From IMG/VR virus record IMGVR_UViG_3300001683_000002, positions 1 through 57,829 of that record: DNA of 57,829 nucleotides. One strand, 5' to 3'. Each line of letters opens with the position of its first letter. The stretch's first letter is position 1. This DNA is from a virus. Shown here piece after piece: positions 23,600-57,829 of the stretch. The notes beneath the pieces are model-generated. The model was given only the letters and a program-made list of their open reading frames with translations. It was not told where the DNA came from and did not search any database. A program made the position numbers and the translations under genes.

Positions 23600-26500
23600 A
23601 TGCCTGAAAATAAGAACCTAAAGAAAACAAGTACAGACGCTGCTGCAATGGGACTCGATCCTTACGCAGCTCTGGATAATGATCCATTAGCGGTCTTAGA
23701 AAACGATCCATATGCAGCGCTAGACGGTGACTTTGGTGTAGAGCCAGCACCATTAGCTTTAGCTCAACCCGAAAGAACGATAGGCGGAACCCTTGGGGAT
23801 ATAGGAGTAACCGGACTAAAGTCAGCTGTAGGATTGGTTGAGGCTGGTATTGGTTTGGCTGACATTCCAACCCTGGGTTATGCTGGAAAAGCCGCAGAGG
23901 CACTAGGTATTAGAACCAAGGATACCCAGGATATATTAGAGAACTTGTATAGTCCTGCTCAGAAGTATGCAGACAAGCAAGTATCTGACGCTAAGGGTTT
24001 TGTGGACACAGTCGGGGCGGGTCTCAGCAATCCATCAACTATACTAAAAGCAGCAGGAGAGTCCGCAGCCTTAATGGGTGGCGGTGGTGTTATTGCGCGT
24101 GGAGTACTTGCGGCAAAAGGTATAACATTGGCTAACGCAACTGCAGGACAACTAGGTCTTGCATCAGCTATAGGTGAGGGTGCTGTCGGAGCAGGTTCAG
24201 CAGCAGAAGGATCAAGACAAGGAACTACAGATGGCTTATTAACTCCTAAGCAGTCAGCTCTAGCGATTGCGACCGGTATAACTACTGGTGCGTTCAACAG
24301 GGTTGGTAGTAAGCTTGCAAACAAATTTGGCTTTGACGATATAGATCAAGTCATAGCTCGTGGTGCCCGAAGCGGAGAAACAACATCAAAGACCATTGGT
24401 CGTAGAATGGCTGAAGGTGGTATATCGGAAGGCTTGTTCGAGGAACTACCACAAAGTGTTGCAGAAACAATCCTTAGCAACGCAGCTATGGATCTTCCAC
24501 TTATGCAAGGTGTCCCGGAAGGTGCTGCTATGGGTCTATTGACCGGTGGTGCAATGGGTATGGCAATCAACGCTAGGCCTACTAGAAAGCCCAACGCTCC
24601 AATAGGCAACGCACTGGATCAAGCGCAACTAGCTCTACCGGCTCCAGGACAGGTTCCTATATTAGCAGGTTATGATAATCAAGATGAAGCACAAGCAGAA
24701 CGAACAGAGGCAGATGGACAAAGACTAGCCCAGCGCTTCTTTAACAAAGCCAATCCCGGAAAGGATGAAGAGATAGATACTACTGACTTTAAAGCGCAAG
24801 CGATAGCAAGTGGTCAATCACAATCAGCGGTCGATAGTTTTCTAGAAGGTCTTGATACACCTATCGAGCCTAACACTACAGGACTACAGGACGGCATTAA
24901 TCCACAGGACGTAATCAGTCAGCAAGAAGAAGGTAAGCTGAAGCAAGCCCAGATGGATTCGGACTTTGAAGGAAGAGAGCAAGATCCTACACAACCTGCT
25001 AAGGACTTTGTTACGTTTGCAAACGAGAAAGGATTATCACGTAAAGAGCGTAAGGCACTACGTAAGTTCATGGCAGACCAACAGATGTCGAGAAGAGCTA
25101 AAGATAACTTCATAGCTAAACTACAGGAAGGAACAGACCAGAACACCCAGGACAATACCCAGGAAGAGAGTATTGTGGACATAGCCCTAAAGGAAGCGAG
25201 CAAGCTCAAACAGAGCGGAGAAGTGGCTAACACTCAACTATCATCAGCACTAACAAAGGCAATCAATGAACCAATCATCAGCGGAAACACTAACAACGAT
25301 ATCAATACTAACGGGTCTAGTGGAAGCACAGAGTCAAGCGTTAACACGGATGGAGTCGGAAATAATCTCGTTACGGGTAGAACTAACGAATCAGAAGTAC
25401 TTGATGGAGCTAGCAATACCGAAGCAGGAGTTGAAGCAACTCATGCCGCCGTACCAAAATTAATTAATCAAACCAGAGAAAACATTAATGAGCAGAAAGA
25501 AACGGAAAGCAAAAAAACGGCAGTTAAAGCGGAATCAGGAGAACAAATAAATGAAATTTACAATAGCTCCATTACACCCACCAATCAGATCAAAGCTACA
25601 GAAGCTGAGATCGAATCAGGGGTCATCGGTCAAAGTCAAGATAGCTCTAAGCCTTTGGAACAAACGGTGGCGAGTCCTGCTGTCAAAAAAGAAGCGATTC
25701 TAACGCAGAAGAAAAACAGATACATTAACAATCAAATTAAAGCTGCTGGTTTAAATAAAAATTCACCTGGGTACGATAATGCTGTCAATACTTTACAAAA
25801 GCAGTATAATAAAGATCTCGAAAAAGCAGAGTTTTCTTTGCCGTTCGAGGAATTTAAAAAGCTACCTGGTAATCGCAAGCAGAGTGATGGGGTTGTACGT
25901 GAGGTCTATGATACTGTTCGTGCGGAACTGGGGATACAAACTAATAAAACACAGGATAATAATGAGCATAGCCCAGAAACCAAAAAAAGTACCACCAACA
26001 CAGCCGCCGTGGGAAACGGAGAACCAACGGCAACTAGAGTACCTGATGGAGCATCAACCACCAATAAAGAAGAAAAAGTAAGTGCGCCTGTAGAAGAAAC
26101 AACGGAAGTTTTAGCTAACACAACAAAGGGCACTAGTACTAGGCTTGATCGCAAGACAAAAAAGGTCTCACCCAAGAAGCGCAATTACTCAGACAGTCGA
26201 GTTGCGAGAGAAAATGATGGAGACACACAATCCTTCAGCAAGGAAGATCCAAGTGCTGATCAGCGAGATGATGTACAAGCAGTATTTACTCCTTCAAAAA
26301 AGTTAACTATGAGCGCAAAGCTAGGCGGTATGACTGCCAGTCCAATGACTGAGCTTAAGCCTACGAATAAATCAGTGCGTAAGTTTCTTGCAGGAATGAA
26401 GAAAGCAAAGGCAGGAAAATTCGGAGCAGCAGTTTTTGTTTATGAGGCTTCAGAATATAAGAAGATGAGAATGTTCTTATCTAGTGATGGTCAGAGTGGG

Positions 26501-29500
26501 TTCGCAGTTAAGCCTGATGGTGATATAGTTAGTGTATTTAATCATGCTGGTGGTGGTAGAGTTAACCCAATGATGGAACTAGCAGTACAGGAAGGCGGAA
26601 CAAAACTTGATGCGTTCGATACAGCACTAGTTGACATGTACGAACTAAGTGGATTCAAGCCAACAAAAATGGATCCTTGGGACGAAGCTTACAAGCCAGC
26701 TGGCTGGAGTAAAGAAACATTTAAAGATTTTAATAACGGAGAACCTGGTGTAGTATACATGGTTCACGAGAAAGACTATAGTCCATCTAATATTTTAGCC
26801 AGTAAAAAGACAAAGGAAACAAGCAATGACAGTACCACAGGAAAAGAACAACAGAGTAGAGACGGAAGCGGACGGAGTTCTAGCCGGGACACTTCGCGTC
26901 TTGAAGGCGCACCAGAGATTAAGGGAGCGTCAGGACAAGATAAAGCAATCGTCGAAGTCGCACAGCAATACGCAAAAGACAACGGAATAGATCTAAAGAG
27001 ACAGTCAGACTATGTCGAGGTGGATTTTGAACTCGCAAAGAGGATAGCCCAGGCATACGAAGATATGGAGCACAAGCCGTCTGATCCTGTTGTTGCTGAA
27101 GCGTACCAGAACCTAATCAAGCAAACTAGAGCCCAGTATGATGCACTAGTTAAAGCTGGATATGAGTTCTACTTTGTTAATGCAGCGGACGCTATCGACT
27201 TCCTGTCTAGTCCTTTTAATGCTATGCGTGAACTACGTCAAGCTAAAAAGCTAGGCGTGTTTCCAACTGTAGATGGATTTGGCGAAGAGAATTCAAAGCT
27301 TGATGTGTCCGACAACCCATTGCTAGCTGACACTGGTATAGTATGGAATGACATCCAGGGCAACAAAAAGAAAGTATTAGCAAATGATCTATTCCGTGCA
27401 GTACATGATGTCTTCGGGCATGGCACAGAGGGGTCAGGATTCCGTGCGCGTGGAGAAGAGAACGCATGGCAGGCACACAGACGCTTATTCACTGGATCCG
27501 CTGTAGCGGCTATCACCTCTGAGACACGAGGACAGAATAGCTGGTTAAATTACGGCATTCACGGAGAAACTAATCAGACTGCTCAGATAGAGGATACAAT
27601 CTTTGCAGATCAGAAGACAGGGTTAATGCCTGAGTTCACATGGACAGAAGGTGTTGCGGGTGACGAAGGTGTGCTTCAGTCTAACAGCGATACAAAGACT
27701 GGATCTACAGTAGAACAAATAGAAGCGCTCATACCTAGACGTACCAAAAAGCTGCTTGATAGCGGTAGGCTAGAGGTCGTGCAGTCTGTAACCGATATTA
27801 GCGATAACTCATATTCATTTACTAGCAATGATGGTCTTGAGGGATTTTATGATCCTAAGACTGATAAGCTATATTTAGTAGCTGACATGCTAGACAAGGA
27901 GAACTTCTCTAGTGTATTGAACCACGAGCTATTCCATAGAGCAAGACGCACAGATAAGAAGCTAAAGAGAAACCTGGCTGAGATAGATAGAAGACTTCAA
28001 GCTAGATTCAACTTAGCAGCGGAAGGCAAAGGTACTGCAGCAGAGCAGGCAGCCTACAAGCGAGTGATGGATGCCAATACTCCAGCTAAAAACCAGCTAG
28101 AGGAATTCCAGGCGTACATGATCACTGACTATAATCAATCACCTAGATCTTTAAGTGCCTCAATGAGACGTTTAATGAAAGATCTGATATCACTGATAAG
28201 GGCATCATTGATTCGTCAAGGAGTGCCTCTAAAGAACATAACAGCTTCCGACTTAAATGCCTTGGCTCAGTACGGCTCAGACAAGCAAACAACCAGCGTT
28301 GCATCAGCAGGTGATACCCTGGTTGGATTAGCCAGCAGAAAAGGATACAAGGGCAATAGCACTAAAGGGGCTAAAGCTTTCCTTACTGGTGATATATACG
28401 GGCGTAAAGCTAGTAATAGTAAGACAGAAGTTTTAGCTAGTACAGCACAGGAAGTGAAGAACGAGAGAGCTAAACGTCTAGAAGAAATAATATTCAGAAA
28501 GACAGGGAAAGATACAGATGATGACATTGACTCAACTCCTCGTCCGGACGATCTTCTAGCTAGTACAGCTGAAATTGCTGCTGAAGCACTTCCTTCTAGT
28601 GGCCTTCACGGAGGCAGGATTATAAAGCAGTGGTCTAAGGATCTCCAGAAGGAGTACCATGACGCAGTGTTTGATGTAATCACCAAGGGTGGAGTGAATG
28701 CAGTATTAAAGCTAGCAGGACTTACTCAAACAAGCACAGTAACAGCACCAAGCTCATACCAGGGTCACGTTGGATCGGTTGAGCAAATCAGTGTTGACGT
28801 TGAAACAACTGTTGACTCCAATGGTATGGAGACCCCAACGCAAGAGTCTAAAGATAAGCTAGAACTAGCGTCAGCAATGCTGGGATACGTCCTTGACCAA
28901 GATGCGGTCGTTGACAGATATCTAGAGCCAGTATCTGCGGGGAGCGACAATATTAACGCTATCAGCTTAAACTATGATAGAGTGCTAACAGGTAATGAAG
29001 TCAAGAACATGATGTCTCATATTGATGTACTGTCTAAAGAGATGGGCTTTGATCCGGAGATGATTGCTATCCCTACCAGTAAGACAGGAGTGGATGTTCT
29101 TAATCTTTCGCCTGATACTATTAGCACTGACATGCTAATTGATATTTCAAGGAGTCTTGCGGCGCAAGTAAACGGAGACTCAAAAACTATATACGCGCAT
29201 AACGCGCTAACGGAGAACGGATATGTCGGGTCAGATAATTTCAGAGAAGGGCAGAGAGCGTATAGCAAGGTCAGAGCGCGGTGGCAGAACCAAAGTAGTG
29301 ACGGAGATAACTCCAGAGCTTCAGGACAGCATGAACCAAAGTGGGACGATAGTACTATTGAGTCGCTCAGAGGAGAAACTAGAAAAGTAACGGAAGAGTT
29401 TCTAGGTAAGCACCACCCGCAAAATAAGAAAACAACTCGTCAGTTTGCTGAACTGATTGACGCCAGGGTAAAGAGCGAGAACGGTACACTTGACGTAAAG

Positions 29501-32500
29501 GATTACTCAGAGAAGGCAATCCAGACAGTTACCAGTAAGCTATTGAGCGAGACTCAAGCTATATTAGAAGGTGGTGATAAAGACGCCATTGGCTGGTATA
29601 CATCAAAGTACAATGATGCTATTAATTTATTGTCAAGACGATTCCCTGAATTTAAGAAGAACGGCGACGCAAGAAACCTGTTCACGGCTATAGTTGCCAT
29701 CACTTCGGACGGAACCTCTGTAAAGGACAATCTGAAATACGCAGTAAAAATATACAAAGAGTACAAGAAGACGGGCAAGCTAGATTCAGTGGGCTTGGGT
29801 GGCGAGAGAGCGGCAAGCTACAAGGCTAACCTCAAACTATTAAGCGGCATAATTGATGAGCATGGTGTTGATGGAATGGTTAACTACCTGACAGAAACCA
29901 TGACCGCTGGTGAGCTTGAAAAAGAATCAGCGTCTATTCTGGGTAAGCCGAAGACGGTTGGCTATCCAAATGAAACAATTGTGCCACGGTCTATGTTATT
30001 CGGAGATAAGCTAGGTGCATTCTTCGCTAACCTTATGGGTCATCCTGATTATCTAACTATGGATAGATGGTGGTCTAGAACCTTCAATCGTCTACGTGGA
30101 CAAATGAGAGCTAACCCAGCTACAGACTCCTCTTGGAAGAGGCTTGCCGAAGCAATAAGGAAAGAGCATCCAGAAGAGAAGCTTGCAAAGTCCCCAAGAA
30201 AAGCCACGCTTCAGAAGCTGGCTACAAAGTACCAGAAGACTTACAAGGCTAGTGGTTTTAAGGATAAGACCGCAACAAATAAAATAGCTAATACTATCAT
30301 GAAAGCTGAGACAGGTCTTAGGGATATACCAGACGGCAAGAGAGGAAGAGCCTTTATGCTTGAGGTTTCGCAGAGAGTCACTGAGGAGTTGAAAAAAGAA
30401 TACCCAGATATGACTGTCGCGGACATGCAAGCGGTGGTGTGGTTTGGGGAAAAGCGACTGTTCAATGAGAACGGCGTCATCTCAACTAAAGCATCTGCTG
30501 AGTCAGACTATAGCGATGCGGCAGCTAACCTTGTCGAGGATGATGCGCCTGTTGATAGAAAGAATATGTCTCACTCTGATGTGCTTAAGCGCGTACCGCA
30601 GCTAACAGAGGCGGCTAAACAGCTGGAGCAGGGTACGATTACCAAGAAAGAATATGCGGAGGTTGTGAAGAAGTATAAGCCTATATTCAAGATTGATGAG
30701 CTACCTGACTCAGCAACCAATGAGCAGATGACTCAAGCCTTAACAAAGGACAAAGTTGAACGTATAGGTATGCCAGTTAAGACCGGCGAGAGAGTTGGAT
30801 TACGATTAGATATACCCGCTTATAAAGAGTCAGGCGTGTGGATTCCAGCTACTCATGTGGCGGGTAGCGGTAATTCATTTAATCCTACAGCTAGAATAAC
30901 TGATGTAAAATTCCTAGATACCAAGAAGGCTGCACTTAACGTAGCAACTGGTGCAAAAAGTAAATCGCCATTTGCTACAATTAAAGGCTCTTATGTTCAA
31001 GGCACTACGGAAGAGAATAGAGCTTTAGCTAAAGAGGCGATGAATAGTCCTGAGTGGATCCAGGTGGGCTTTGACCCTGAGCGTCACAGTTACTTCTACG
31101 ATAGAACTCCTGATGCTAATGGTCATCATAATCCTGTAGCGGCTGCAGATGAAGCGATACAGATCGGGCAGTTAGTGTTAGCCAAGAACCCAGTTTACGC
31201 TAACGAAGATGAAGTATTATTTAGCCGAAAAGCAGTAACCAAAGAAGCTCATGCAGTAGCACAGAATAACGCAACTCTACCTAAGAGCCAGGGAGGCTTA
31301 GGCTTGCCTGCGAATAACACAGCTAAAGACAGAGCTAGGGCTATGGGGTTTGATGTTGATACAGTTTGGTACAGAGGGGTTACGGGTGATTTAGCTGAAG
31401 CTAACGGCTCGTTGCAGGGGCGCGATACTTATAATGGACAGAGGGGTGGACTACAATTCTTCTCCGAAAACCCGGACATGGCAAGTACATTTGCCAACAC
31501 TGATGCAGGGCGCGTTTACCCTGTATATTTGAAACTCAGCGATGTAAAGCAGTTTCCAGTGGGGAAGGAAGGGCGCTTTAGTAAGACAGGTTTTGATGAT
31601 GCCGCGTTAAAGCTAGACGAAGGTCAGGCATTAATGGCGCGTAAAGTTATTGATAGCGGCGCTTATGTTGACAAGACCCTTGACCCTAACAGCCTATGGA
31701 GTTACAACGCTGATCAAGTCGCTATAAGAGGAGATAAAAACATACGCTCAATACACGCAGCTTTCGATCCTATGCTTGCGGATGAGCCTACTCTTCTTTA
31801 TTCTATAAAATCCACAGCACAGAAGAACGCGGCTCTACCTAAGAGCAAGGGAGGCTTAGGCTTGCCTGAGGGTAACACAGCTAAAGACAGAGCTAGGGCT
31901 ATGGGGTTTGATGTTGATACCACTTATTATCGCGGGACGACGGAGGCATGGTCAGAAGATGGTGATCTGACTGGCGTTTACTACACCTCTGATCCTGAAT
32001 ATGCGTCAAGCTATTCGGACGGAGAGGAAGGCCAGATGGTCATTCCCGTTTTCCTAAACACAGAACATTTCAAAATTGAGACTGATATAAATGATGTTAC
32101 TGACTGGAACTTCAACCAAGATGAGCTGGCAGCTCAGGGCTATACCGGAGTAATGCACGAAACGGATGACGTAGCTTTCATATTTTCAGATAAATACAGA
32201 CGGAACACGCCGAAAGCCAGCTCAAACATTCGCTCAATACACGCAGCTTTCGATCCTATGCTTGCTGATGATAGTAACCTTCTAGCTAGCACAATAGAGA
32301 AACGTAAGCCAGTAAAGAGAAAGCCAGTATCAAAAAGAAAGAAAGCCCCTAGCAAGATTAAAGGGACTAATGCTACATGGCGCGATAGACCAGGCTTTGA
32401 AGGTGTTACTGAGGCAGGCTTTGCAGCACTAGGAAAGATAGGCGCTCCATTGACTGGGAATTTTGTAGAAAAAACTAAAGCAGCGGTTAAGGACGCATCA

Positions 32501-34912
32501 ACTTTATGGCGTAGAAAAGTAAGACAATACGGTGTCGATCAGTTCGACTCGTTTAAAAACATCTTAGGAGATAAAGAGTCATGGATGATGGCTCATATAA
32601 GCGGCACAGGATCTAGCGTGGTCGAAGCACTTACGGAATTCGGTAGACCATTACTGGATTGGTCTGGTGCTGTCAAGGTTGACATGAAGAAGAAAAGCCT
32701 AGCACAGATCTTTGAGCCACTAGGCACAGAGACAGATAGGTTCTTGATGTGGGTAGCGGGTAATAGAGCGGAAGGTCTGAAGGTTGATGACAAAGAGCAT
32801 CTATTTAACCACGCTGAAATAGCAGAGCTTAAGCGCTTGTCTGATGGCACGAAGGATGGCAAGAGTCGCTTAGCACTATATAAGGAAGTGCTTGTAGAGT
32901 TTGAAGCTATGCATAATGCTGTAGTTCAAATCGGTGTTGATACAGGACTAGTTAGTAAAGAAGACGCCAAGATCTGGAAGGATCAGGGTTTCTACGTTCC
33001 ATTTTACCGCATAGCTGAAGAGTCAAGCGATCACCAGGGTAAAGGTGTTCCGTCAGCGAGTGGACTTCAAGGACAAGAAGCGTACAAAAAACTCAAGGGT
33101 GCTGATATGCAGCTTGATGATTTACTAGTTAATACCATGATGAATTGGACGCACTTAATCGGAGCATCACTAAAGAATCAGGCTGCTAGTAAAGCGTTAG
33201 TACAGGCTGTGAAGCTTGGGATAGCTACACCAGTAAAGGAGTCAGAGCGAGGCGAGAAGGCTATCTTCGTTCGTGTAAATGGCCAGAAGCAGTACTATGA
33301 TATTGTTGATACTACAGAAGGTAGATTAGTCCTTGACTCTCTAACATCTCTGAACTTTGACGGTCTGAATGGTACGCTAATGAAAGTAATGCGTAAGTTT
33401 AAACGTGCCTTAACTATTGGTGTAACAGCGTCCCCTGAATTTAAGGTCGCTAACCTACTACGAGATACGCTTCAAGCAATAGCGGTAGCTGACATGAGTA
33501 CCAATATAGGTAGGAACCTTGTAGAGGGATACAAGGCGACATCTAAAGACAATCCGATTATAGCCCAGATGATTGCTGGTGGTGGCGCGTTCGGTGACTC
33601 CGGGTATATTTCTGGTGGCGATCCAGATGCTATCAAAGCTAGTCTGAAAAAGGGAATACCTAGCTCGTCTATACTTAATACAGATAGTAAGATAAAGAAA
33701 ATGTGGGATGCATATCAGGACGTAGGCGCTAGAGCGGAGAACATTAACCGTGCAGCTAACTTTAAGCAAGCACTAGAAAAAGGAAAGAGTTTACTAGAAG
33801 CTAACTTTGAAGCTCGTGATCACCTAGACTTCACTAGATCAGGTTCAGCTGTTTCAGTGAGAGCTATATCTCAAATGGTTCCGTTCTTAAACGCAAGGCT
33901 ACAGGGTCTTGATAAACTTAGTCGTGCTGCTATGGATCCGGAGCAGAAGGGACAGTTTGCAGCGGTCGTCGGTATGTATTCGCTAGCATCAGTGCTTCTA
34001 TACTTAGCTATGCGTGGAGACGAAGACTATGAAGAAGCTGAAGACTGGGAGCGTGATACGTACCATCTGTTTAAGCTTCCTGGTAGTGACATCATGTACA
34101 GATTCCCAAGGCCTTTTGAAGTTGGAGCTATAGGTAGTATGGCTGAACGATTCGTGGAGCAGCTAGTTGATGATAAAGTTCATGGTGAGTTATTTGCGGA
34201 AAGACTAATGCATACAATTTTTCAGACATTCGCAATGAACCCTACACCTCAGTTGTTCAAGCCTCTCGTTGAGACCTGGGCTAACAAGAGTTGGTTTACT
34301 GGACGTGGCATAGAGTCCCAGTCAATGGAGCGCTTATCTAAAGTGAACCGTAAGAAGGCCTGGACGTCACAGACAGCTATAGGTTTGAGTACCGCTATGG
34401 ATGCAATTTTATGGGATGACGTAGTACTTAGTCCTGTTCAGATAGATCACCTTGTGAAGGGCTACCTGGGCTGGTTAGGAGCAACTACTCTAGCTGGTAT
34501 CGATACGCTCGCAAGACCTGCGTTAGGCGTTGCTGAGGCTCCAGACATGGAGATACAAGATCTAGCAGTGGTAGGAAGGTTTGCCAGAGAGGGTAAGGCT
34601 CGAAACTCAAAATTCATTAGCCAGTTTTATGAGAACCAACGTGACCTTAATCAAAAGTTTGCAGACATTAAGCACTACAGAGATAACCAGGAGTATAAGA
34701 AGGCAGCGGCGGCACTTCAGCTTCACGGTAACGAGCTTCGGAACCGCAAAGCTTTCAATCGTGTTGGTAAGCGATTATCAGATATAAACAAAAAAATTAG
34801 ACTGATAACAGCAAGCAAGAGAATGTCGGGTGCTGCAAAGAGAGTTGCGATTAATCGCCTTAATAGGCAGCGCATCTTAATAACTAAGAGAGCTGCCAGG
34901 CTTCTTGAGTAA
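23600..34912 (+). CDS. Giant polyvalent virion protein with zincin, ADP-ribosyltransferase-like and LPD38-like domains
   Basis: This single 3770-residue protein fills about a fifth of the genome. In order it contains short acidic NDP repeats (20-43); a Gly/Ala-rich hydrophobic region able to span or disrupt membranes (about 55-330); a disordered linker; a GNAT-like block (about 900-1055); a conserved domain with HDVFGH at 1269-1274 (about 1110-1350); a zincin motif HELFH at 1442-1446; a helical conserved block (about 1930-2290); an LPD-type block with DPERHSYFYDR (about 2490); and two ADP-ribosyltransferase-like domains, each opening with LPKS.GGLGLP and containing YRG with Arg2592 and Arg2778. 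A C-terminal domain resembling LPD38 follows (about 3270-3650), then a basic tail. Such proteins are packed in the head, ejected with DNA and modify host targets. Domain names follow the polyvalent-protein literature from memory. Confidence 0.8.
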   Translation: MPENKNLKKTSTDAAAMGLDPYAALDNDPLAVLENDPYAALDGDFGVEPAPLALAQPERTIGGTLGDIGVTGLKSAVGLVEAGIGLADIPTLGYAGKAAEALGIRTKDTQDILENLYSPAQKYADKQVSDAKGFVDTVGAGLSNPSTILKAAGESAALMGGGGVIARGVLAAKGITLANATAGQLGLASAIGEGAVGAGSAAEGSRQGTTDGLLTPKQSALAIATGITTGAFNRVGSKLANKFGFDDIDQVIARGARSGETTSKTIGRRMAEGGISEGLFEELPQSVAETILSNAAMDLPLMQGVPEGAAMGLLTGGAMGMAINARPTRKPNAPIGNALDQAQLALPAPGQVPILAGYDNQDEAQAERTEADGQRLAQRFFNKANPGKDEEIDTTDFKAQAIASGQSQSAVDSFLEGLDTPIEPNTTGLQDGINPQDVISQQEEGKLKQAQMDSDFEGREQDPTQPAKDFVTFANEKGLSRKERKALRKFMADQQMSRRAKDNFIAKLQEGTDQNTQDNTQEESIVDIALKEASKLKQSGEVANTQLSSALTKAINEPIISGNTNNDINTNGSSGSTESSVNTDGVGNNLVTGRTNESEVLDGASNTEAGVEATHAAVPKLINQTRENINEQKETESKKTAVKAESGEQINEIYNSSITPTNQIKATEAEIESGVIGQSQDSSKPLEQTVASPAVKKEAILTQKKNRYINNQIKAAGLNKNSPGYDNAVNTLQKQYNKDLEKAEFSLPFEEFKKLPGNRKQSDGVVREVYDTVRAELGIQTNKTQDNNEHSPETKKSTTNTAAVGNGEPTATRVPDGASTTNKEEKVSAPVEETTEVLANTTKGTSTRLDRKTKKVSPKKRNYSDSRVARENDGDTQSFSKEDPSADQRDDVQAVFTPSKKLTMSAKLGGMTASPMTELKPTNKSVRKFLAGMKKAKAGKFGAAVFVYEASEYKKMRMFLSSDGQSGFAVKPDGDIVSVFNHAGGGRVNPMMELAVQEGGTKLDAFDTALVDMYELSGFKPTKMDPWDEAYKPAGWSKETFKDFNNGEPGVVYMVHEKDYSPSNILASKKTKETSNDSTTGKEQQSRDGSGRSSSRDTSRLEGAPEIKGASGQDKAIVEVAQQYAKDNGIDLKRQSDYVEVDFELAKRIAQAYEDMEHKPSDPVVAEAYQNLIKQTRAQYDALVKAGYEFYFVNAADAIDFLSSPFNAMRELRQAKKLGVFPTVDGFGEENSKLDVSDNPLLADTGIVWNDIQGNKKKVLANDLFRAVHDVFGHGTEGSGFRARGEENAWQAHRRLFTGSAVAAITSETRGQNSWLNYGIHGETNQTAQIEDTIFADQKTGLMPEFTWTEGVAGDEGVLQSNSDTKTGSTVEQIEALIPRRTKKLLDSGRLEVVQSVTDISDNSYSFTSNDGLEGFYDPKTDKLYLVADMLDKENFSSVLNHELFHRARRTDKKLKRNLAEIDRRLQARFNLAAEGKGTAAEQAAYKRVMDANTPAKNQLEEFQAYMITDYNQSPRSLSASMRRLMKDLISLIRASLIRQGVPLKNITASDLNALAQYGSDKQTTSVASAGDTLVGLASRKGYKGNSTKGAKAFLTGDIYGRKASNSKTEVLASTAQEVKNERAKRLEEIIFRKTGKDTDDDIDSTPRPDDLLASTAEIAAEALPSSGLHGGRIIKQWSKDLQKEYHDAVFDVITKGGVNAVLKLAGLTQTSTVTAPSSYQGHVGSVEQISVDVETTVDSNGMETPTQESKDKLELASAMLGYVLDQDAVVDRYLEPVSAGSDNINAISLNYDRVLTGNEVKNMMSHIDVLSKEMGFDPEMIAIPTSKTGVDVLNLSPDTISTDMLIDISRSLAAQVNGDSKTIYAHNALTENGYVGSDNFREGQRAYSKVRARWQNQSSDGDNSRASGQHEPKWDDSTIESLRGETRKVTEEFLGKHHPQNKKTTRQFAELIDARVKSENGTLDVKDYSEKAIQTVTSKLLSETQAILEGGDKDAIGWYTSKYNDAINLLSRRFPEFKKNGDARNLFTAIVAITSDGTSVKDNLKYAVKIYKEYKKTGKLDSVGLGGERAASYKANLKLLSGIIDEHGVDGMVNYLTETMTAGELEKESASILGKPKTVGYPNETIVPRSMLFGDKLGAFFANLMGHPDYLTMDRWWSRTFNRLRGQMRANPATDSSWKRLAEAIRKEHPEEKLAKSPRKATLQKLATKYQKTYKASGFKDKTATNKIANTIMKAETGLRDIPDGKRGRAFMLEVSQRVTEELKKEYPDMTVADMQAVVWFGEKRLFNENGVISTKASAESDYSDAAANLVEDDAPVDRKNMSHSDVLKRVPQLTEAAKQLEQGTITKKEYAEVVKKYKPIFKIDELPDSATNEQMTQALTKDKVERIGMPVKTGERVGLRLDIPAYKESGVWIPATHVAGSGNSFNPTARITDVKFLDTKKAALNVATGAKSKSPFATIKGSYVQGTTEENRALAKEAMNSPEWIQVGFDPERHSYFYDRTPDANGHHNPVAAADEAIQIGQLVLAKNPVYANEDEVLFSRKAVTKEAHAVAQNNATLPKSQGGLGLPANNTAKDRARAMGFDVDTVWYRGVTGDLAEANGSLQGRDTYNGQRGGLQFFSENPDMASTFANTDAGRVYPVYLKLSDVKQFPVGKEGRFSKTGFDDAALKLDEGQALMARKVIDSGAYVDKTLDPNSLWSYNADQVAIRGDKNIRSIHAAFDPMLADEPTLLYSIKSTAQKNAALPKSKGGLGLPEGNTAKDRARAMGFDVDTTYYRGTTEAWSEDGDLTGVYYTSDPEYASSYSDGEEGQMVIPVFLNTEHFKIETDINDVTDWNFNQDELAAQGYTGVMHETDDVAFIFSDKYRRNTPKASSNIRSIHAAFDPMLADDSNLLASTIEKRKPVKRKPVSKRKKAPSKIKGTNATWRDRPGFEGVTEAGFAALGKIGAPLTGNFVEKTKAAVKDASTLWRRKVRQYGVDQFDSFKNILGDKESWMMAHISGTGSSVVEALTEFGRPLLDWSGAVKVDMKKKSLAQIFEPLGTETDRFLMWVAGNRAEGLKVDDKEHLFNHAEIAELKRLSDGTKDGKSRLALYKEVLVEFEAMHNAVVQIGVDTGLVSKEDAKIWKDQGFYVPFYRIAEESSDHQGKGVPSASGLQGQEAYKKLKGADMQLDDLLVNTMMNWTHLIGASLKNQAASKALVQAVKLGIATPVKESERGEKAIFVRVNGQKQYYDIVDTTEGRLVLDSLTSLNFDGLNGTLMKVMRKFKRALTIGVTASPEFKVANLLRDTLQAIAVADMSTNIGRNLVEGYKATSKDNPIIAQMIAGGGAFGDSGYISGGDPDAIKASLKKGIPSSSILNTDSKIKKMWDAYQDVGARAENINRAANFKQALEKGKSLLEANFEARDHLDFTRSGSAVSVRAISQMVPFLNARLQGLDKLSRAAMDPEQKGQFAAVVGMYSLASVLLYLAMRGDEDYEEAEDWERDTYHLFKLPGSDIMYRFPRPFEVGAIGSMAERFVEQLVDDKVHGELFAERLMHTIFQTFAMNPTPQLFKPLVETWANKSWFTGRGIESQSMERLSKVNRKKAWTSQTAIGLSTAMDAILWDDVVLSPVQIDHLVKGYLGWLGATTLAGIDTLARPALGVAEAPDMEIQDLAVVGRFAREGKARNSKFISQFYENQRDLNQKFADIKHYRDNQEYKKAAAALQLHGNELRNRKAFNRVGKRLSDINKKIRLITASKRMSGAAKRVAINRLNRQRILITKRAARLLE
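31267..31779 (+). repeat. First copy of duplicated ADP-ribosyltransferase segment
   Basis: Both ends of this in-frame segment recur downstream. Bases 31315-31362 (48 nt) are identical to 31873-31920, and 31745-31779 (35 nt) to 32231-32265. The middle, which carries most of the domain, is diverged. The pattern suggests domain swapping through conserved flanks. Confidence 0.85.
31827..32265 (+). repeat. Second copy of duplicated ADP-ribosyltransferase segment
   Basis: This copy has the same 48-nt left flank and 35-nt right flank as the copy at 31267-31779, but a shorter, different core encoding YYRGTTEAWSEDGDL and a separate acidic stretch. Confidence 0.85.
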
Positions 34913-41835: not shown

Positions 41836-42042
41836 ATGGTCACATGCGGAAGCTGTGAACACTTCATACCAGACCCAATCGGGTTTGGTGGAGGGATTGG
41901 TCAATGTAAGATATATAATGCCAGGGTGGCTGCTCACGGTTCGAAAAAAGTGGCACCACCTAGAGGTCGTTGTTTATTCCCACTCGTTGAAAGAACATGT
42001 AGTCAACATCAACTTAAAACTAATAAAGAAAATGAAACTTAA
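41836..42042 (+). CDS. Small Cys-rich, probably zinc-binding protein
   Basis: This 68-residue protein has an AGGAGG ribosome site. It starts MVTCGSCEHF (Cys4, Cys7), with further Cys near residues 23, 46 and 55, in the layout of small zinc ribbons. It is the first gene after the promoter at 41777. Function unknown. Confidence 0.7.
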   Translation: MVTCGSCEHFIPDPIGFGGGIGQCKIYNARVAAHGSKKVAPPRGRCLFPLVERTCSQHQLKTNKENET

Positions 42043-42429: not shown

Positions 42430-42525
42430 ATGGTAGAAGCAGTAATAAGTGTGATATTAATCGTAAGCGGCTTTGCAGTCACTTTTTTATTCCATTTAAA
42501 GATAGCTGAACAGCTAGACACATAA
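42430..42525 (+). CDS. Transmembrane microprotein
   Basis: This 31-residue protein is almost entirely one hydrophobic helix (AVISVILIVSGFAVTFLF) with a short polar tail. Its ribosome site is AGAGGG. It is followed by a strong terminator after 22 bases. Function unknown. Confidence 0.6.
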   Translation: MVEAVISVILIVSGFAVTFLFHLKIAEQLDT

Positions 42526-42547
42526 AACTTACGCAGGAAAAATAATT

Positions 42548-42571
42548 AAGCCTCTTAACTGAGGTTTTTTT
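42548..42571 (+). terminator. Rho-independent terminator
   Basis: A 7-bp stem (AAGCCTC with GAGGTTT, one G-T pair) with a 6-base loop is followed by a T-run. It ends the short operon from the promoter at 41777 and separates it from the gene-free region. Confidence 0.85.
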
Positions 42572-43230
42572 ATGCCTGGTGATTACGTATTGGGATTTGG
42601 AACTTATGAGAGGTAAGACTAGAGGATGGGATTATATTTTAAACATAGCAAGATCATAGACCGAGAAGTGATAACCCTGTAGTGACGTGAGAAGTTGTAT
42701 ATAACTTATCTCTCATTACCAAGGGTTGATACTTTGGTCATTCATCTCATTGTGTACCGCTAGCTACGGTTAATCTATTCTCAGATAATTACAATCCGCA
42801 TAACGCCCCCGGAGCGAACGAGGTAAGGTATGCCAGCTTATTGTTTTCTGCCCAGGAAGGGCATATCACTATTCTGAATTTATCACGTGAACTGCTATGT
42901 CCACATCGCCTGGCCAACTTGCGATCTGAGTAAGACTGACTGGAATGTATATATACCACGGTAAAAATTGAATAAGCCGTATATACGTTTGTTAGTTTAC
43001 TTCTTGAGTTTAGGTCAAGCTTGTAAGCAACACCTTTTGATTAGTACGAGAATGCCCCTACAGCAGGATTAAATACACTACCGGTAGGCCTGGTCATTGT
43101 ACAACTGAACACAGCACAGATGACCTGGTAAGCATTACTACGTGTCTTTCAAGTTTCGAGAGAAGCCCTTCCAGTACGACTAAATCCCTACACACCCGTA
43201 GTATAACATAAAAAACCGCGCTGAACATTA
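42572..43230 (+). ncRNA. Candidate large structured non-coding RNA
   Basis: About 660 bases with no convincing gene. Several helices can be read directly. 42667-42678 pairs with 42722-42733 (11 of 12 positions); inside it, 42687-42692 pairs with 42711-42716. 42849-42853 pairs with 42859-42863, and 42905-42909 with 42921-42925. 42947-42961 pairs with 42977-42986. A long helix with a bulge is formed by 42990-43007 and 43015-43032. 43089-43097 pairs with 43120-43128. Loops contain palindromes (TGGCCA, CACGTG nearby). The size and setting recall GOLLD or ROOL RNAs, but I cannot match a known consensus. A replication origin or a decayed gene are alternatives. The strand is inferred from the flanking genes. 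Confidence 0.5.
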
Positions 43231-43242
43231 AAAAAATAAATA

Positions 43243-43281
43243 TGTACATTCGTTTGACATTTCTGTATGATAGTAGGTCAA
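43243..43281 (+). promoter_or_regulatory. Promoter with overlapping inverted repeat, ahead of the helicase gene
   Basis: TGTACA (43243-43248) and TATGAT (43266-43271) are 17 bp apart. The -10 lies at the centre of a perfect inverted repeat, TTGAC (43254-43258) with GTCAA (43277-43281). The repeat could be an operator for the Cro-like or RHH-like regulator. Confidence 0.5.
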
Positions 43282-43309
43282 TAACCGATCGCCTGGAGGG
43301 GCACAATAC

Positions 43310-44821
43310 GTGGAAATAGTACCAAGAGACTATCAAGAAAGCTTCATTCATGATATTAAGGCGGCCATACGAGCCGGTGACAAGCGAATAATTGCTTGCG
43401 CCAGCACTGGTGCAGGAAAAAGTATTGTCCTGGCTGCTATAGCACAATCAGCGCTAGCAAAAGGAAAGAGGGTGATCATAGTTCTGCCCAGGAAGTCTTT
43501 AGTCATTCAGTTGTCTGCAACTTTCGAGCAGTTCAAGATCAGACATACTATTTTAATGGCTGGAGAACCTTATCACTCGCAAGCTAGATGTCAAATCATT
43601 AGTATTGACACGTACACATCAAGACTAGCAGCGAAGAGAATGCTTTTCGTAGATGCTGACGTGCTATGTATAGATGAGATGCATGTACAGCATACAGATA
43701 CTAAAATAAAACTGTTCGATAGGTATAAAGTAATCGTAGCATTTACAGCTACTCCTGTTGCACCTAAGAAAAGACCACTGGGTGTCCTATATACTAAGAT
43801 CGTTTCATCCATATCAATGAAAGAGCTGGTGTCGATGGGGCATCTTGTGCCGTTGCGTTATTTTGCACCTTCTGATTTTCATTCAGATGATGTGAAGGTT
43901 GACGCTGAAGGAGAATATAACTCAAGACAGCTGGACGAATATATTGACGATAAGCTAAAGACGGAAGATGGAAAACTGAAGATCGTTGGAGATGTGGTAG
44001 AGAACTGGCAACGAATCGCTAGCGACAGACAGACAGTGGTCTTCTGCAAAACCCAGGCGCACTCTAGACATATACAGCAGGAATTTTTAGACAAGGGTGT
44101 CAAGGCTTTATATATAGATTGCAATACAGATATCCCTGATCGTGAGCAGATCTTTCGAGACATGGCAGAAAAGAGAGCGCAAGTCCTGGTCAATGTTGGG
44201 ATTGTTGCTATGGGGATTGACATTCCAATTTTGTCTTGTGTGATCCTGGCTACTCCGATCAATAGAATAGCTAGGTACCTACAGTGCGTAGGAAGATTAA
44301 CTAGACCGCACAAAGAAAGCGGCAAGGTTGATGGCCTGGTGATCGATCATTGTGGTATCGTTTCTAAGCTGGGCTTTGCTGATGACGAACAATTCTGGAC
44401 ACTGGACGGAGAAGAGTCACCTGAAGAGCTTAAGAAAAAAGACAAAGAAGAGAAAGAAGCACCAAAGGAAATTACATGCAGCGAGTGTAGCTTTATATTT
44501 GTTTCTCGTAAGTCATGTCCTCAATGTGCTTTTGAGATGGTTCCTTTGGGTGAGGAAATACCAGTTCATCAGGCTGAGCTAGTTGAGATCAGTGCGAAAG
44601 ATAAGGTACCATCACCGGCAGACAAGAAGGTTTTTTATTCTATGTTGTTAGGACATGCTAAGAATAAAGGATTCAAGACAGGCTGGGCAGACCATAGCTT
44701 CAAGACGAAGTTTGGTCACTTCCCTAAAACTAAAAAAGGTGTGGAGGCTATCAACCCGGACGATACTGTGTTAGGCTACATTAAACATTTGCAAATCAGA
44801 AGAGCTAGGTCGAGAAAATGA
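43310..44821 (+). CDS. SF2 DEAD/DEAH-type helicase
   Basis: This is a 503-residue protein with GTG start 43310 and GGAGGGG upstream. Walker A is STGAGKS (Lys37), motif II is DEMH (122-125), motif III is TATP (146-149), and motif VI lies near 325-332 (QCVGRLTR). The C-terminus carries a zinc-ribbon-like CxxC...CxxC near 385-402, then a basic tail. It likely unwinds DNA during phage replication and overlaps the primase gene by ATGA. Confidence 0.9.
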   Translation: MEIVPRDYQESFIHDIKAAIRAGDKRIIACASTGAGKSIVLAAIAQSALAKGKRVIIVLPRKSLVIQLSATFEQFKIRHTILMAGEPYHSQARCQIISIDTYTSRLAAKRMLFVDADVLCIDEMHVQHTDTKIKLFDRYKVIVAFTATPVAPKKRPLGVLYTKIVSSISMKELVSMGHLVPLRYFAPSDFHSDDVKVDAEGEYNSRQLDEYIDDKLKTEDGKLKIVGDVVENWQRIASDRQTVVFCKTQAHSRHIQQEFLDKGVKALYIDCNTDIPDREQIFRDMAEKRAQVLVNVGIVAMGIDIPILSCVILATPINRIARYLQCVGRLTRPHKESGKVDGLVIDHCGIVSKLGFADDEQFWTLDGEESPEELKKKDKEEKEAPKEITCSECSFIFVSRKSCPQCAFEMVPLGEEIPVHQAELVEISAKDKVPSPADKKVFYSMLLGHAKNKGFKTGWADHSFKTKFGHFPKTKKGVEAINPDDTVLGYIKHLQIRRARSRK

Positions 44822-45756
44822 ATATTGATATAAAAGAAGAATACAAAGGGCGCTGGGCATCCATACTGATAGGGGCTGGTGTTGATGGCAATGTACTGAA
44901 CGGTAAGCATCAACCTTGTCCTTTATGTAGTGGTAAAGACAGGTTCCGCTGGATAGCTGATACAGAGACAGCATTTTGCTCTCAGTGTGGTGTACGTGGA
45001 GGGATAGACTTCCTTATGGAGTTTGCCGGGCATTCGTTTCGAGAGGCGTGTGAATATATTAGAGGTGAAAAAGTGGAATATAAACAGCAAGAGAAGAAGA
45101 TTAAGGTCAACCCGATCAACAGATTGAAACAGATACATAAAGGTCTTAAACCTATAACTCCTGGTGATCTAGTGTCTACGTACCTAGAAAGACGGGGAAT
45201 TACTAAGGTGGGTTCTGATATCTTTACGTCGTCTAGTATCCCATATTATGGTGGTTTTGTTGACGGTAAGAAAGTTACAGGAGTCTTTACAGCTATGATC
45301 GCCAGAATAACCAACCTGGACGGCAGCTTACAAAGCTATCATGTAACTTACTTAAATGATCATGGCTTTAAAATAGATTTTGCAGCAGCTAAAATTATCA
45401 TCACTCCAATGACTACTATTACAGGGTGTAGTATAAAGCTAGCTGAGCCAGTTAATGGGCAGCTGTGCGTCGCTGAGGGGCTGGAAACTGCTTTAGCTAT
45501 ACAACAGGAAGAAGGAGTACCTACTTGGTCTGCTATCAACGCCAACGGCATGATAAAAATGGAAGTGCCTAGTACTGTTACTAACGTAAATATTTTTCTG
45601 GATAACGATCAAAATTTCACTGGACATGCAGCAGCATATCAATTAGCTAATCGTTTAGCAGTAAAAGGGGTGGCTGTTACCGTCATCAATGACTGTGAAA
45701 TCGGCGACGATTATTTAGACTTAATGAATAAAAACAAGGAGTTAGGAAATAGTTAG
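44818..45756 (+). CDS. DNA primase (P4-type zinc finger plus TOPRIM)
   Basis: This is a 312-residue protein. The zinc ribbon is Cys34-Cys37 and Cys54-Cys57 in a CPLC.GKDRF...CSQCG context. The TOPRIM domain shows AEGLETALA (about 218-226) and FLDND (about 260-264). It would make RNA primers for phage replication. No helicase domain is attached; the separate SF2 helicase just upstream may be its partner, though it is not a replicative hexameric type. Confidence 0.9.
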   Translation: MNIDIKEEYKGRWASILIGAGVDGNVLNGKHQPCPLCSGKDRFRWIADTETAFCSQCGVRGGIDFLMEFAGHSFREACEYIRGEKVEYKQQEKKIKVNPINRLKQIHKGLKPITPGDLVSTYLERRGITKVGSDIFTSSSIPYYGGFVDGKKVTGVFTAMIARITNLDGSLQSYHVTYLNDHGFKIDFAAAKIIITPMTTITGCSIKLAEPVNGQLCVAEGLETALAIQQEEGVPTWSAINANGMIKMEVPSTVTNVNIFLDNDQNFTGHAAAYQLANRLAVKGVAVTVINDCEIGDDYLDLMNKNKELGNS

Positions 45757-56915: not shown

Positions 56916-57829
56916 TGACAAAGAATTCTTAGACCTGGCAAGGGACGCGTATACAACAAGCGAAACCTATGTTGACTCATTTATGCGTAAGCAATGGGAA
57001 GACGGATTAAAACAATGGCAAGGTAAACACGCAACAGGCTCCAAGTATCTAGCAGAAGGATACCGTGGACGCTCACATTTATTTAGACCACGCACTAGAG
57101 CAGTAATACGTAAGAATGAGGCAGCAGCAGCAGCAGCGTTCTTTTCAACGTCAGACGTAGTCAATATATCACCTCAAGATGACTCAAACCCATTAGACAA
57201 GCTTACGGCTGAAATAATGGACAGCTTAGTCAACTACAGATTAAATAATACTATTCCTTGGTTCATGATCCTGAACGGTGCTTATCAGAGTGCCCAGGTA
57301 ATGGGTCAGGTGTGTAGTTACCAGTCGTGGAAGTACGAGAATGGCAAGGATGAGCCATGCATTGACCTACGACCAATAGAGAACATACGAATAGATCCAG
57401 CTTCAGATTGGCTAGATCCTGTGAATTCAAGCCCTTATATCATCGATTTAATCCCTATGTACGTAGGCGACATCGAAACAAAGATGAGAGTGCCTGATGA
57501 GAAGACAGGGGAACCAGAGTGGATAGATACAGATGAAAAGACATTATTAAGTGCTACCAATGAATATTGGGATAGTACACGCATGCAAAGGGAAGATAGA
57601 GGAGATAGTAAGTCTAATCTATATACTACAAACAACAAGTTTGCCACAGCATGGGTCAGACGTAACATTATTAAAGTAGACGGTCAAGACTGGGTATTCT
57701 ATACTCTGGGCAGTGAGCATTTACTAAGTAAGCCAAAGAAGCTAGAAGAAGTATACCATACAGGCGAGAGACCATATGTGATAGGTTCATGTATATTAGA
57801 GTCCAATAGATCAATGCCTTCTAGTGTCT
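56905..57829 (+). CDS. Portal protein, N-terminal part (continues at the left end)
   Basis: ATG 56905 opens the portal gene, which runs off the window end and continues in frame from base 1 through the 91-base overlap. The N-terminal half has the mixed helix/strand composition expected of the portal clip and stem region and includes RPRTRAVIRKNEAAAAAAFF, found near the start of podovirus portals. Confidence 0.85.
   Translation, partial: MALNDKEFLDLARDAYTTSETYVDSFMRKQWEDGLKQWQGKHATGSKYLAEGYRGRSHLFRPRTRAVIRKNEAAAAAAFFSTSDVVNISPQDDSNPLDKLTAEIMDSLVNYRLNNTIPWFMILNGAYQSAQVMGQVCSYQSWKYENGKDEPCIDLRPIENIRIDPASDWLDPVNSSPYIIDLIPMYVGDIETKMRVPDEKTGEPEWIDTDEKTLLSATNEYWDSTRMQREDRGDSKSNLYTTNNKFATAWVRRNIIKVDGQDWVFYTLGSEHLLSKPKKLEEVYHTGERPYVIGSCILESNRSMPSSV
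57739..57829. repeat. Terminal direct repeat, right copy (contig overlap)
   Basis: These last 91 bases equal bases 1-91 exactly. Removing one copy gives a circle of 57,738 bp with an uninterrupted portal gene. Confidence 0.93.

Follow-up and report, generated by a model that had tools for sequence, protein, structure and literature searches.

A 784-bp gene-free region with two predicted hairpins before the helicase-primase operon of a phage: a candidate noncoding control region

What does a phage genome with a coding density of 94% (self-trained codon-model gene calling) keep in the gene-free DNA in front of its helicase-primase operon? The window analysed here is the virus record IMGVR_UViG_3300001683_000002, a stretch of 57,829 nt. 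The window ends (1-91 and 57739-57829) overlap by ~91 bases and near-identical contigs from other IMG/VR datasets read across this overlap; hence the record is a complete circular genome of ~57.7 kb. Its major capsid protein shows 58% identity to Vibrio phage counterparts, for example that of D65. To the left of the gap, genes for a Sak annealing protein and a PolB-type exonuclease are found on the minus strand, and a metallophosphoesterase operon on the plus strand ends at 42525, where the gap begins. The features framing the locus are listed below.

42526-43309, no strand assigned: gene-free region of 784 bp, the largest gap in the genome
42548-42571, plus strand: intrinsic terminator of the upstream operon (40.5-42.5 kb), consisting of a hairpin (42548-42567) and a T-run
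43212-43271, plus strand: A-rich stretch followed by a weak sigma70-like promoter match (TGTACA-17-TATGAT, 9/12; chance matches are expected in the region)
43310-44821, plus strand: SF2 (ResIII/DEAD) DNA helicase gene, downstream of the gap
44818-45756, plus strand: Toprim DNA primase gene, overlapping the helicase gene and forming the helicase-primase operon with it

An initial annotation had described a gene-free region of ~780 bp and considered it striking in so dense a genome; our analysis bears out both points, and all coding tests were negative. The 3-base periodicity of the gap was 2.1; 39 coding windows of equal length had a median of 7.9, and none of them fell below 3.1. The best coding-like segment lay at the shuffle median in the codon model (p=0.46), and the GC skew was 0.004, the skews typical of plus-strand genes in this genome being missing. 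Stop-masked six-frame translations gave no match to PHROGs, and the three forward frames gave none to phage records (tblastn). Taken together, these results show that the gap holds neither an overlooked gene nor one that decayed recently. A decayed protein gene was rejected as a candidate, as the codon model left no residual coding signal and no PHROG or phage-record similarity was found.

Three further loci in the genome are recorded here. The polyvalent protein encoded by a single gene of 3770 aa (23600-34912) carries LPD38 and weakly matches an ADP-ribosyltransferase-like domain (ART-PolyVal); it is probably a virion protein that is injected. A lysine-decarboxylase/LOG-type (SLOG) gene occurs on the phage at 51828-52547, possibly with a role in nucleotide signalling or metabolism. 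A small Cys-containing ORF without a Pfam or PHROG match (41836-42042) sits in a fold at 41860-41979 (z=-5.3 on the plus strand), which is among the strongest local folds nearby and lies within coding sequence.

The terminator claimed at the 5' edge was recovered with both its hairpin and its T-run, and since the hairpin is symmetric it may also work on transcripts running leftward. It is the sole intrinsic terminator of the region. None was found at the 3' edge on the plus strand, so plus-strand transcription starting inside the region would enter the helicase gene. No strong promoter was found 5' of the first hairpin described below (hairpin A), promoter-like matches occurring at chance number; the sigma70-like match at 43243-43271 is a possible helicase gene promoter. 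Just 3' of the terminator, two tiny overlapping ORFs occur at 42575-42619 (MPGDYVLGFGTYER) and 42608-42661 (MRGKTRGWDYILNIARS), the former with a GAGG at suitable spacing inside the terminator stem. These ORFs may be chance occurrences or possibly a leader peptide 5' of hairpin A.

Analysis of RNA folding in the region revealed the following pairings.

42660-42741, plus strand: hairpin A, an imperfect hairpin of ~80 nt with 32 pairs in the MFE
42606-42617, plus strand: alternative partner of 42705-42716 (11/12 paired), competing with hairpin A; weak
42930-43004, plus strand only: hairpin B, ~75 nt with 25 pairs, its base extendable to about 42905-43022
42988-43034, plus strand: bulged helix of the initial annotation, mutually exclusive with hairpin B
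43084-43133, plus strand: segment holding a stem of the initial annotation (43089-43097 with 43120-43128), not beyond chance

The pairing of 42667-42678 with 42722-42733 and the nested stem at 42687-42716, noted initially as separate elements, do exist and together make up hairpin A. Its z-score on the plus strand was -3.9 to -4.7, with none of 300 shuffles as stable, and on the minus strand -2.5 to -3.1. Enforcing the alternative pairing of 42606-42617 with 42705-42716, in the 3' arm of hairpin A, gave a structure less stable by 6 kcal/mol; a switch between the two could form, weakly. Hairpin B, missing from the earlier list of pairings, scored z=-3.4 on the plus strand (1/300 shuffles) versus -0.2 on the minus strand (104/300), and its extended form scored -3.0 on the plus strand. 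This strand asymmetry, presumably caused by G-U pairs, points to an RNA of plus polarity. The long bulged helix proposed at 42990-43032 is present (z=-2.4), but it takes the 3' arm of the stronger hairpin B, whose disruption costs about 10 kcal/mol. The stem at 43089-43097 with 43120-43128 stayed at chance level (z=-1.8, 15/300 shuffles as stable). Palindromes, to which the initial annotation had also drawn attention, are mildly enriched, with 18 six-mers (genome mean 10.9) and seven eight-mers (genome mean 2.9).

Comparison across the genome placed hairpins A and B among the eight lowest-z of 2308 windows. Two windows of z<-3.5 within 750 nt of each other occur only here on either strand, a comparison made post hoc. 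Similarly low-z windows occur elsewhere in the genome within coding DNA, and z near -4 therefore arises without an RNA role. The excess is local: 42740-42905 was less stable than its shuffles (z=+1.7) and 43030-43210 showed no excess (z=-0.5). When the whole region was folded on the plus strand, 1/20, 10/60 and, in a repeat, 6/60 shuffles were as stable (z=-1.5). In the same whole-length test RNase P scored z=-3.7, and E. coli tmRNA and the 800-nt lncRNA of Vibrio phage ICP1 scored -1.4 each; given these last two scores the test is weak and does not exclude a real long RNA. Folding against shuffles thus showed structure beyond chance for two local elements and not for the region as a whole, which folds about like shuffled sequence. 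Two separated hairpins are supported, and a single large ornate fold lacks energy support. Antisense or c4-type complementarity between the region and other genes of the genome reached 14 nt at the longest, as in random segments.

The search for homologues in metaviromes and other collections retrieved only near-identical copies and no diverged homologue. The only homologue is a near-identical copy (99.9%) from the same virus on one other independent IMG/VR contig, which makes an assembly artefact unlikely. With a single substitution over 771 bp and a divergence of ~0.09% overall, the two copies are uninformative on constraint. Blastn against phages, plasmids and E. coli matched only a terminator stretch of ~26-35 nt, nhmmer over 2.6 Mb of loci found nothing, covariance models built from hairpins A and B matched only these hairpins themselves in 0.95 Mb, and exact region patterns in IMG/VR retrieved only the near-identical contig. 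A pattern match in an Alistipes genome was taken as chance, since its flanks do not align and several such matches are expected.

Peptide patterns found no helicase relatives at 40-99% identity in IMG/VR and none in GTDB genomes. In the nearest helicase-primase relative, locus L208, the helicase and primase are 38-39% and 55% identical to those of the window. There a 184-aa gene precedes a comparable terminator, and no more than some 30 bases further on the helicase follows. With the L208 terminator directly before the helicase, the additional 700 bp or so present here look lineage-specific. Relatives of the helicase-primase pair lack comparable sequence in this position, and those in Baldr, phi1422 and L208 have no such gap before the pair.

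Two distant phages with a homologous pair, the Pseudomonas phages PS-1 (L222:1876-2488) and YA3 (L223:1772-2495), share a conserved stretch with RRFNHHWPM in its minus-strand translation, located within or close to the unannotated sequence that precedes the helicase-primase genes. The pre-helicase space of PS-1 folds better than its shuffles (z=-2.7).

Our tentatively preferred reading is that the region is a noncoding leader of the helicase-primase operon, transcribed from the plus strand, in which the hairpins act; transcription, its strand and the regulatory role are inferred from sequence. Under this reading 42572-43309 would be a lineage-specific noncoding control region of the replication operon, and the plus-strand transcript would be a long untranslated leader or an RNA reading into the operon or processed from it. 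The two hairpins would serve as functional RNA elements, most simply in cis, and might set the timing and amount of helicase-primase or stabilise or process the transcript. Consistent with this reading are the noncoding status of the region, two hairpins that go beyond shuffles and are each stronger on the plus than on the minus strand, and the placement between a 5' terminator and the operon with no plus-strand terminator at the 3' end. The ORF-less transcribed space of ICP1 provides a precedent (PMC7567579). Against it stand the shuffle-like folding of the whole region and the lack of a strong promoter before hairpin A, and helicase transcripts initiated at the weak promoter match (43243-43271) would begin 3' of both hairpins. 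Furthermore, the closest helicase-primase relative, L208, manages without such a region, and no diverged homologue was found.

The main rival, which we consider rather unlikely yet the most serious of the alternatives, is cis-acting DNA, namely a phage replication origin (with a promoter region) beside the helicase-primase genes. The palindromes and hairpins might then be protein-binding or single-strand extrusion sites and the AT-rich stretches unwinding sites. The position directly before the helicase-primase genes, the mild palindrome enrichment and the A-rich 43212-43245 agree with an origin. So does the equivalent position in distant phages with the same pair, which holds 613 bp of unannotated sequence in PS-1, about 470 bp in YA3 and a small RepL-like gene in Vibrio phage 1.115.A and HS1, a likeness that fits an origin or a control region. 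However, the region has no iterons (one 10-nt repeat pair only) and no DnaA or IHF consensus sites, the Baldr, phi1422 and L208 relatives do without the gap, and a DNA role does not predict a hairpin B that is stable only as plus-strand RNA.

It is unlikely that the terminator and the helicase are separated by functionless or relict DNA, inserted or decayed, whose hairpins formed by chance. Its detection in this virus only, the L208 gene order, the lack of an overall structure excess and the similarly low z-scores in coding DNA elsewhere in the genome would all fit this reading. Phages, however, tend to shed useless DNA, no trace of a former coding sequence was found, and no other part of the genome has two hairpins as strong and as closely spaced.

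Readings as a discrete large RNA fare worse. A new single-species class of large phage ncRNA is improbable; it would be about 400-700 nt long and lie 5' of the replication operon, with two rigid domains (hairpins A and B) and long, flexible linkers, and would work in trans or form a particle. Still more doubtful is one large ornate structured RNA of ~600-700 nt, a new class working like GOLLD, ROOL or the ICP1 lncRNA. The size, the ORF-less phage setting, several hairpins and the mildly enriched palindromes speak for it, and the low whole-length z-score is no obstacle when tmRNA and the ICP1 lncRNA score -1.4 and the region -1.5. On the other side, it has no Rfam match, 42740-42905 and 43030-43210 show no structure beyond that of shuffles, no terminator closes the 3' end, and the region is without homologues, unlike GOLLD and ROOL, which are known from many phages (PMC12286853, PMC7567579). 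Membership in GOLLD or ROOL, suggested initially, is not supported: a scan of all 4227 Rfam families (cmscan) gave nothing at gathering score in the whole window and nothing at E<4 in the region, the ROOL model (RF03087) gave no match up to E 10 in the region (nor did any control genome match), and ARAGORN found 0 tRNAs and no tmRNA in the window.

The initial annotation was thus right about the odd location and about real pairing, and its step to a giant GOLLD/ROOL-like RNA is not supported by the tests run here. At present the region is a candidate and not a discovery. Long ORF-less phage spaces sometimes conceal very abundant RNAs of unknown function, and here is an uncluttered orphan case whose two well-delimited hairpins are open to probing. 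If it yields a discrete RNA, it would lengthen the short list of such large molecules in phages. As an origin or a leader, it would show how an SF2 helicase-primase module is controlled when no RepL-type initiator is present.

Comparison with known systems brings out different likenesses. Ornate RNAs of the GOLLD, ROOL and OLE type are characterised by an elaborate secondary structure with covariation behind it and by homo-oligomeric particles. GOLLD is likewise a phage-borne large RNA of a similar order of size, and it often has tRNAs nearby or within it, whereas the region is without an Rfam match, a tRNA or an identifiable conserved 3' domain. ROOL is also phage-borne and of similar length; the region differs in having no model match, no tRNA island and no signs of a conserved multi-helix fold. 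In PS-1, YA3, Vibrio phage 1.115.A and Fels-1, too, a homologous helicase-primase pair is directly preceded by a long stretch that is unannotated or holds a small gene, but their helicases are only 26-32% identical and no DNA similarity to the region was found; in PS-1, YA3 and Fels-1 the upstream stretch comes after cI/cro-type control genes. The clearest case of a concealed RNA is ICP1, in which a ~1-kb ORF-less space with no tRNA nearby yields the most abundant transcript, ~800 nt long (PMC7567579). The ICP1 lncRNA (gp139-gp140) lies at the lysis cluster, is transcribed very highly and is conserved in related phages (PMC7567579, PMC9040626), and it has no sequence similarity to the region. 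The two loci have in common an ORF-less space (~0.8-1 kb, within the ~0.7-1 kb expected of an ICP1-type long ncRNA) in a dense, tRNA-free genome and a whole-length folding z of about -1.4 to -1.5, and the region is a candidate ncRNA region resembling that of ICP1.
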